Positions 11,801-13,719 of a stretch of 28,574 bases of DNA are shown here, piece by piece. The notes beneath the pieces are model-generated. The model made no database searches and was not told where the DNA came from. It worked only from the letters and a program-made list of their open reading frames with translations. The stretch lies in assembly GCA_000827205.1 (NCBI GenBank), contig KN832563.1, positions 542,470 through 571,043 on the forward strand, read 5' to 3'. Within the stretch, counting starts at the first letter, position 1; the number at the start of each line of letters is the position of its first letter. The position numbers and the translations under genes were made by a program. The DNA comes from Plicaturopsis crispa FD-325 SS-3. Taxonomy: Eukaryota; Basidiomycota; Agaricomycetes; Amylocorticiales; Amylocorticiaceae.

Positions 11801-12450
11801 CAAGGATGCGCGGACTCCAGGTGGACTCGGACGTCGAGCCGCACGCAGAGTCATGCGGGCTTACGAGGACACCCCGAGGCGCGCGGAGGGCCCAGGGGAA
11901 AGTAGTATGATCCCCGGAGAGGGATAGAGTAGGCCGCCCTTGATGGTCACGGTGCGGGCGTCCTCTCCGGTGCGTTGTCGAGTTCCTGGCCGAAATACTG
12001 TACCCTGGCTGATGTACTTGCCCAGATAATTAGAAATATCGGGGATATTTCCGAAAGTTTCCGAAAGTTTCGGAAACTCGTGAATAGCCCTTAAGGGATA
12101 TTTCGGCGTTTAAGCGTTAAGGCATCGTTTGGCAAATATCCCTTAAGGTGTATCAAGCCGAATATCCCTTAAGTGACGGCCGTTAAGGCATACACTCTCA
12201 AATATCTCTTAAGGGATATTCACCACACCGACCCTTAAGAGATAAATTGCATGGAATTCCTTAAGGGATATTTCGAGAATATCCCTTAAGGGATAAACAA
12301 CAAGGAATCCCTTAAGAGGTATAAAGCAAACCAAGTCTTAAGGGATAAATCCTCGGATATCGCTTAAGGTGTGTTTCTCGAAACATCCCTTAACGGATGC
12401 CCGGACGCGCCAAACGGGATATAGTTAAACAAAATCAAGACAATTTATTC

Positions 12451-12558
12451 AGACATTTGGCGTAGTGGTTGGAATCGGCGACGTTATTATTTCCAGTCGC
12501 GTGTAATGTTAAGAGTGCAAGTTCGACTCTCGCGAAGTAGTTTTGTTTTTTTTGCTTT
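12451..12558 (+). ncRNA. tRNA-like Pol III unit (tRNA relic or SINE head)
   Basis: An A-box-like TGGCGTAGTGGTTGG (12458-12472) and a B-box-like AGTTCGACTCT (12520-12530) stand about 48 bp apart. Between them GCGAC and GTCGC can pair as an anticodon-type stem with a 13-nt loop. GCAAG and CTCGC flank TTCGACT as a 4-of-5 bp T-arm. A T-rich stretch (12540-12552) could terminate Pol III. The acceptor strands do not pair, so a functional tRNA is unlikely. A tRNA pseudogene or tRNA-derived SINE head carried in the transposon is the better reading. Confidence 0.5.
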
Positions 12559-12585
12559 AGCCTTTACTCAGGGTGCTAGGCCTTA

Positions 12586-13073
12586 CAGCCTGTTGCATAA
12601 GTCCGTGAAAGCGTCAACTTTTATTCTCGGGAGATCCGTGACTCATGTCACGCCGGCAAGAAATGCCGATGCTCAACTGTTGCTAGAGCCCTTCCGAGAA
12701 GGGCGCGTCGCCGCCGCTCAGCACCCTGAGCTCGCTGTCGCGAACGATGAGCACGCCACCTTAAACGTCGCCGTCAGTAGCACGGAGTGTACCCTCATCA
12801 CGTTAAGTCTTCGGAGGAGGAGTCACATGTACTTCCCAGTCATGGTAAACTTGCAATGTATTGAAAATGGGGCTTTATTGTCGTCGGGGGCGGGGCGCAC
12901 AGTGAGCAGATGGGCGACCCCATCGCGAGAGGCAACGAGCTCGAGCATCCGGCAAGCATCGGGCCTATTTTTGGTGTCCGTTGCTACCTACTGTCGCCGT
13001 GGGACGGATCTTGTCTTGTCACACTCTGGCGAAATAAAAATTTTGCGCTTTCACGGACTTATGCAACAGGCTG
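12586..13073. mobile_element. TA-flanked MITE nested in the hAT-like element, 488 bp
   Basis: A perfect 32-bp inverted repeat occupies 12582-12613 and 13046-13077, beginning CTTACAGCCTGTTGCATAAG. Counting TA (12584-12585 and 13074-13075) as the target duplication, the element starts CAGCCTGTTGCATAAGTCCG, as in pogo or Tc1/mariner relatives. The open frame at 12506-13102 crosses both ends and is not credible as a gene. Confidence 0.8.
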
Positions 13074-13719
13074 TAAGTGATATTCGAATGTATATCCCTT
13101 AAAGGATATTCGGTCTTGTATGCCTTAAGGACTATTTAACGTTGTAAGCCTTAAGAGATTGATAGTTTTCAACCATATGGGTATTCTTGACGACGAGGTG
13201 CCCTGCAGGGTTTTAATGCTACACGCCATAAGGGCTAAAACACGAATAATGTCTTAAGGGATATTTACCAGGATAACCCTTAAGGGATGTTCACGAGTTT
13301 CCGAAACTTTCGGAAAGTTTCCGAAATATCCCCAGTATTCCCATCGCTCTCTACTTGCCACTACGGGATCATCAAAGTTCAACGTTCAAACCGGGTCGTG
13401 CTCTGGAGTCTGGGCAGCGCATAATGATGTTAGGGAAATACACCGCCGCGCTCGACAACGCCGGGACTCGAAGTATTCACGGCTCAGGCGGTGGCGGCCT
13501 CGCACTTCCGTCCGTATTTCGGTGAGCAGTTCCATCTAGATGCTCTGCTAGTGTTGACGAGACTATCCAGCTGAAACACCGGACGTCTAGTCCAAGGGCG
13601 GCATTATAGGCCGCCTCCCCAGACATTGCGACGGCACTGGGCAGCAGCGACTTTCGCTAAGCACGTTCGACAGGGCGCATTGGCAGACTTTCCACCGCGT
13701 ATAACGTTAAGGATCCAGC

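Follow-up and report, generated by a model that had tools for sequence, protein, structure and literature searches.

To our knowledge, there are very few elements for which structures show in detail how a multimeric transposase reads repeated end sites. In the hAT element Hermes, two BED domains bind cooperatively to a quasi-palindrome of the subterminal repeats. The two ends of Hermes carry 17 and 14 subterminal motifs, and a single-base shift impairs cleavage (accessible sections of PMC10368747). Shared between Hermes and the locus described here are 8-bp duplications, dissimilar left and right ends and many short subterminal repeats, together with the importance, on the Hermes data, of position relative to the terminus (same sections of PMC10368747). 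Hermes differs in its motif (AAGT), in preferring nTnnnnAn targets and in encoding a transposase; no 26-bp array is mentioned in those sections (PMC10368747). A further difference from Hermes is that the half-sites at the present locus face outward from a 2-bp centre (CTT/AAG). Tol2, also a hAT element, has a perfect palindromic subterminal site, AAGTACTT, after its terminal repeat (cited in the accessible sections of PMC10368747), that is, one palindrome versus 13 plus 9 phased units in one copy of the present element (A_C10b). The Cryptococcus elements KDZ1-3 are similar in their 8-bp duplications (4-8 bp for KDZ2 and KDZ3) and inverted ends of 139-241 bp; they differ in being 9-11 kb long and encoding a transposase, and the available portion of the description mentions no subterminal palindrome arrays (PMC12810828). 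Since palindromic transposase sites are already known from Hermes and Tol2, at least in the sections seen, the long phased array is what differs. In kind, the present element is ordinary, most probably a non-autonomous cut-and-paste transposon; what sets it apart is the unusual regularity of its end architecture, together with an unexplained pol III-like passenger.

The window, a stretch of 28,574 nucleotides of Plicaturopsis crispa (C10:542470-571043 in a 33.2-Mb, 49-contig assembly), contains one copy of a real, repeatedly inserted, gene-less cut-and-paste mobile element (Table 1). Split reading frames, the size of the assembly and its many KDZ transposases are in keeping with a fungal genome. 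The element is opened by CAGATAATTAG at 12023 and closed by ...CATCGCTCTC at 13351. These boundaries and the flanking 8-bp duplication had been given correctly to the base by the original prediction, made from the letters of the window alone. Length 1329 bp, or 833 bp without 12582-13077. Inverted ends rich in GGAAA had also been predicted and are present: each end has three TTTC[C/G]GAAA units at 10-bp steps, and the ends of family A form a 117-nt pair, 75% complementary. Coding capacity was examined on the copies A_C10b and B_C25 and on one window frame, the 2.2-kb copy B_C3a lying outside this set. Open reading frames wholly inside the element do not exceed 56 aa in A_C10b and 92 aa in B_C25; the 198-aa frame at 12506-13102 has no Pfam family match. 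As in MITEs and other non-autonomous elements, the element is short, lacks coding capacity and occurs in several copies with identical boundaries and duplications.

Table 1. Features of the element copy in the window (positions counted from the first base of the window)
Feature	Position	Strand	Description
Target-site duplication, left copy	12015..12022	+	TACTTGCC
Target-site duplication, right copy	13352..13359	+	TACTTGCC
Family-A element, window copy	12023..13351	+	boundaries common to 3 other copies
Left terminus	12023..12076	+	CAGA-N14-GGGGATATTTC; three TTTC[C/G]GAAA units, 10-bp steps
Left array, 12 sites with at most 2 mismatches to CCCTTAAGGG	12088..12396	+	mostly 26 bp apart
tRNA-like pol III-type unit	12458..12553	+	A box TGGCGTAGTGGTT, B box AGTTCGACTC, then T run
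Nested mini-element	12586..13073	+	own inverted ends (CAGCCTGTTGCATAAGTCC); TA at 12584-12585 and 13074-13075
Right array, 7 sites with at most 2 mismatches to CCCTTAAGGG	13096..13286	+	weaker site ACCATATGGG at 13172
Right terminus	13298..13351	-	inward: GAGA-N14-GGGGATATTTC; three TTTC[C/G]GAAA units

The terminus pattern (C/G)AGA-N14-GGGGAT(A/T)TTTC(C/G)GAAA(C/G) was searched genome-wide. The assembly has 26 exact matches, which are the ends of 15 copies: four of family A (window; C10:952649-953502; C7:88294-89172; C1:1300896-1302027) and eleven of a sister family, B, with matching termini. Two B copies (C7, C27) are single-ended, the other side entering an assembly gap. All 13 two-ended copies have one terminus starting with CAGA and the other with GAGA. 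Exact 8-bp target duplications flank 9 of the 15 copies, duplications being assessable in all but three. Atypical are A_C10b (9 bp), B_C1b (7 of 8 bases matching, read by eye) and A_C7 (none); the four family-A copies thus comprise two with exact 8-bp duplications, one with 9 bp and one with none. Further copies with the same ends, on which the original prediction depended, therefore exist, all four A copies sharing both boundaries, and the 8-bp duplication that it had proposed to look for recurs among them and in family B.

Pairwise identity within family A is 94.5-98.6%, with the exception of one pair (83.2%) in which the aligner matched through unrelated inserts. Identity within family B is 89.4-99.5% (seven of eleven copies aligned), with 98.6-99.5% among four of these copies. 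Between the families, the window copy and B_C4 are identical at 51 of 64 bases of the left end and 45 of 55 bases of the right end; with the A element as query, however, blastn aligns only the ends at three B loci. The copy B_C12a (C12:785087; L081 1088-2013, L082) abuts a gap; its left flank is that of B_C12b and its right flank, just before the N run, is that of B_C14 (GAGTATACTA). B_C12a may be a scaffolding or assembly artefact, so that family B may number ten insertions.

The window has 25 sites with at most two mismatches to CCCTTAAGGG, of which the element contains 19. In the 833 nt searched (12582-13077 left out), shuffled sequences contain 0.55 such sites on average and 5 at most (1000 shuffles), which bears out the predicted filling of both subterminal regions with about 19 degenerate copies. 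As a description of the unit, a 10-bp perfect palindrome holds in part: CCCTTAAGGG is exact in 3 of the 19 sites and one further site (CCCTGCAGGG) is a perfect 10-bp palindrome, making 4 of 19. That the sites are usually followed by ATAT was overstated, ATAT following 5, preceding 6 and standing on either side of 9 of the 19. Among the matches listed genome-wide, CCCTTAAGGGATAT with at most one mismatch occurs 48 times, all in the four A copies (reversed-pattern control 1 and 0). Among the papers listed by a literature search, none described the sequence; those returned for CCCTTAAGGG as a string did not, by title, concern DNA transposons.

The sites are spaced in a 26-bp phase. Steps in the left array are 52, 26, 14, 26, 26, 26, 25, 26, 26, 26 and 26 bp, a weaker site at 12114 filling the 52-bp step; steps in the right array are 26, 26, 53, 24, 26 and 26 bp. 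Of the 17 within-array steps, 13 measure 26 bp give or take one base; the remaining four are 14, 24 and the doubles 52 and 53, both of which contain weaker sites. In A_C10b, CCTNNAGG at one mismatch has 22 sites forming 28 pairs at 26 or 52 bp (+/-1), versus at most one pair in 500 shuffles; 28 pairs were never reached in 2000 random placements of 22 sites. A_C7 and A_C1 have one 26-bp unit more than A_C10b at the start of the right array (from alignment), from which it appears that units are gained or lost whole. The phase, the central pol III-type unit and the nested mini-element had been missed by the original prediction.

Family B has the same half-sites, CCT-NN-AGG, with other centres (CCTCCAGG, CCTGGAGG, CCTTGAGG, CCTCAAGG, CCTCGAGG, CCTGAAGG). 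Three B copies were tested; being related, they are not independent tests. One-mismatch sites number 10-11 in each (shuffle mean 3.6-3.8, maximum 10-11), a count that by itself is borderline against chance. Each also has 6 exact CCTNNAGG sites (shuffle mean 0.17-0.25, maximum 2-3). One-mismatch sites form 5, 6 and 6 pairs at 26 or 52 bp, versus a maximum of 2-3 in 500 shuffles, and random placement reaches these numbers 1-4 times in 2000. For exact CCTNNAGG alone, phasing reaches significance in one copy, B_C4 (6 in 2000); in the remaining two it does not (1 pair, reached 358 and 339 times in 2000). Genome-wide, CCCTNNAGG-N17-19-CCTNNAGG has 14 matches, every one within an A or B copy (the control has 1 match forward and 1 in reverse).

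Information content was determined for the 19 sites of A_C10b at positions outside the 10-mer used for picking. The core flanks are informative (1.37 bits at -2; 0.91-1.70 bits at +10 to +12, with 1.70 at +11), values attained by random sets at most once in 5000. Positions between the core flanks and the background are weakly informative (0.29-0.60 bits), and the signal falls to background at -8 to -6 and at +16 and +17. Uniform loss across positions would be expected of a tandem repeat in decay; core and spacing therefore appear to be kept. Among the copies, ends and arrays are less variable than the middle, both in family A (four copies; 22 of 672 versus 20 of 136 variable columns, p = 2e-6) and in family B (6 of 11 copies, B_C14 being dropped for a gap; 96 of 753 versus 50 of 160, p = 8e-8). 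Site arms and spacers do not differ significantly among copies, either in A (7 of 132 versus 37 of 530 variable, p = 0.56) or in B (7 of 66 versus 134 of 719, p = 0.13); the case for selection therefore rests on the within-array comparison.

Families A and B are best described as non-autonomous cut-and-paste DNA transposons whose palindromes are putative subterminal transposase-binding sites (probability about 0.7). Termini, duplications, copies, array, period and variability pattern are observed directly; binding of the arrays by the transposase, and the superfamily of the latter, are inferred. The proposed element is MITE-like, about 830-930 bp without later inserts, and belongs to one of two sister families. 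A transposase, most likely hAT or KDZ, would cut at the CAGA and GAGA termini and insert the element into staggered 8-bp targets. The CCCT-NN-AGGG half-sites (26-bp period) and the TTTC[C/G]GAAA units (10-bp period) would be the subterminal sites, on which a multimeric transposase with small DNA-binding modules would dock, bringing the ends together in the manner of BED domains on Hermes ends. In helical geometry, 26 bp would correspond to approximately 2.5 turns and 10 bp to approximately one turn. Binding of a dimeric protein, as originally suggested, gains indirect support from the inverted half-sites, the phasing and the less variable outer regions. A regular array of inverted half-sites at 26 bp that has persisted in both sister families, against a randomised outer spacer, would be a natural test of how site spacing and number set end recognition.

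Other roles for the arrays are less probable. Palindromes acting as DNA cruciforms or RNA hairpins are scarcely credible, although perfect palindromes do occur, the longest measuring 16 bp in the copy of the window and 18 bp in other copies of family A. Bases placed symmetrically in the flanks (offsets 0-5) are complementary no more frequently than after permutation of the partners, a pair inside the 10-mer is broken in 15 of the 19 displayed sites of A_C10b, and perfect 10-bp palindromes like CCCTNNAGGG are absent from the three B copies checked. The lack of flank covariation fits protein-bound half-sites and argues against a cruciform, so the earlier suggestion that the units could form cruciforms is unsupported. 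It is improbable, if less so, that the arrays bind a host zinc-finger regulator and that the element spreads a stress-responsive enhancer. TAAGGGAT, which we take to resemble the yeast post-diauxic-shift element, or its complement is found in many family-A units; family B, however, mostly lacks the TA centre yet keeps CCT-NN-AGG, and the arrays adjoin the termini at both ends, as expected of transposase sites.

Given a transposase, two superfamilies compete for it. Matches in the genome number 13 for the hAT dimerisation domain PF05699 and 43 for the KDZ transposase (42 over the curated cut-off), the nine best KDZ matches each covering about 200 of 217 model positions. Termini of hAT elements generally follow the rule YARNG. 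Here the termini start with CAGAT or CAGAA and with GAGAG or GAGAC, so that the rule does not hold at both ends, the GAGA terminus breaking it. The CAGA terminus resembles CAGAG of hobo and Hermes and was counted for hAT. That A and B are MITEs of hAT proper, whose BED domains read AAGGG/CCCTT half-sites, is a tentative reading, somewhat short of an even chance. It agrees with the 8-bp duplications (9 of 15 exact), the 19 subterminal sites and the hAT transposases present in the genome; many subterminal repeats, palindromic ones included, are known in hAT elements (Hermes AAGT sites and Tol2 AAGTACTT, in the accessible sections of PMC10368747). Against it, no matching end lies in the 3.1 kb around the 13 hAT matches, nor convincingly elsewhere at 3 mismatches, and the nine exact duplications fit hAT target preferences poorly: 0 of 9 have nTnnnnAn, the preference of Hermes (accessible sections of PMC10368747), and 1 of 9 has nnnTAnnn, that of TcBuster; such preferences are not universal in hAT, Ac being contrasted (available portion of PMC10512250). 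The poor fit to them also counts towards the other possibility, which stays below evens as well: that a KDZ (Zisupton/Dileera-type) transposase mobilises the element, A and B being internally deleted KDZ derivatives. KDZ matches outnumber those to the hAT dimer domain, 43 versus 13; Zisupton and a Puccinia Dileera make 8-bp duplications (available portion of PMC12730594), as does Cryptococcus KDZ1, with 241-bp inverted ends (available portion of PMC12810828), and the 75% complementary, 117-nt end pair of family A is in keeping with such ends. KDZ is, however, represented here by domain matches, whose surroundings the genome-wide end patterns cover indirectly, and the eight end-like matches outside A and B are all more than 30 kb from any listed KDZ match. 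Kyakuja-type elements differ (7 bp, CA..TG, no inverted repeats; available portion of PMC12730594), and duplications of KDZ2 and KDZ3 are 4-8 bp (available portion of PMC12810828). With no matching end in the 3.1 kb around hAT loci, a poor fit to hAT target preferences, a GAGA terminus and abundant KDZ, hAT and KDZ stand at about equal odds. The original designation 'hAT-like' may be right: the 8-bp duplications and the dense subterminal repeats stand, but a hAT transposase with such ends was not found at up to 3 mismatches, and the two target preferences are seen in 0 and 1 of the nine duplications.

An autonomous partner was searched for with the left end, the full B element, the end patterns at 3 mismatches and the spaced half-site pattern. 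No autonomous copy with these ends was found in the assembly; the A and B copies and eight 3-mismatch matches were returned, within a reach of 3 mismatches that more diverged ends or assembly gaps could escape. The terminus pattern at 3 mismatches gives nine matches, one being the interrupted end of a B copy and eight others (reversed control 0 and 3); the inner-end pattern at up to 3 mismatches gives 27, each of them an end of an A or B copy (0 and 2 for the reversed pattern). Around the 13 PF05699 loci (3.1 kb around each) there is no matching end or array, the best candidates having 6-8 mismatches. The autonomous hAT relative that the original prediction had called for was not encountered among the end matches read, at up to 3 mismatches. 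Two of the eight extra matches, the two that were read, at L088 (C10:1299300-1300100), belong to a local degenerate repeat of the ATATTTCGGCGA type and were judged unrelated.

The middle of the element carries a tRNA-like pol III-type unit. In A copies, TGGYNNAGYGGTT is followed 50 bases on by GTTCGACTC and then by a T run (seen in alignments); B copies have like boxes with 40 bases between (48 in C27). The boxes lie near the middle in one orientation relative to the CAGA end in both families (in B, for example, L025 and L083, minus strand). The A/B-box pattern is matched 11 times in the genome, versus 0 and 0 for its reverse: in all four A copies, in four of the eleven B copies (C4, C12a, C25, C27) and at 3 other places. 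B_C1b, B_C3b and B_C12b lie one or two changes away from the strict pattern and B_C14 has N there; the comparison covered the B copies other than C1a, C3a and C7. Presence of the unit in both families suggests an origin before the A/B split.

Tests for a gene were negative. ARAGORN (bacterial setting) found no tRNA gene in the window, in 9 element-bearing loci or in L089, and Rfam searches at E up to 10 with the middle segments of the window copy and B_C25 gave no family match. The unit is thus not a callable tRNA, neither ARAGORN nor Rfam recognising a fold. Boxes do not differ significantly in variability from the stretch between them, either in A (2 of 23 versus 8 of 49 variable columns, p = 0.49) or in B (3 of 23 versus 14 of 39, p = 0.08). 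The middle is the most variable part of the element, which counters strong selection on the unit and makes a present function doubtful. In tRNA-derived SINEs, the A and B boxes are internal and a T run comes after them. Families A and B share this arrangement of boxes and T run; they differ in having inverted ends and 8-bp duplications and in that the unit is central, not 5'. It is unlikely, if conceivable, that the lineage uses two cis systems, the phased dimer-site arrays as a 26-bp ruler and a central pol III unit kept through the A/B split because it is helpful. Pol III transcription or bound TFIIIC might, in that case, insulate the element from silencing or open chromatin. A functional unit would be an unusual MITE cargo and could affect silencing or spread. 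The three box matches outside the element are L089 (C11:827200-828230), C11:473764-474672 and C28:95728-95857. L089 is another tRNA-like sequence, whose A/B box is similar and whose middle is long, and the stretch around it is partly duplicated; it was judged unrelated, the finder giving no inverted repeats and no array being present.

The nested mini-element at 12586-13073 has three more copies (C2, C6, C13), 89-93% identical and all TA-flanked. It is inserted at the centre of a CTTAAG site. At the same CTTAAG centre, A_C1 holds a 256-bp insert of another kind, likewise flanked by TA (L023). Two independent, unrelated insertions at one of 74 TA steps (count in A_C10b) are suggestive, and no more. 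The insert of B_C3b (L026) is a further nested element with inverted ends CAGGCCCCCGGAAGCTCCTGCAG. Rfam matches to miRNA precursors (array, L022) are far below gathering scores and were taken as chance matches to inverted repeats. L022 200-384 forms a long imperfect hairpin of approximately 185 nt with a weak score against miRNA-precursor models, and is perhaps another inverted-repeat mini-element. Pfam matches were obtained for 5 of 10 scanned frames of the window: histidine phosphatase, MARCHF6-like, mitochondrial carrier and, in two frames, DHBP synthase.
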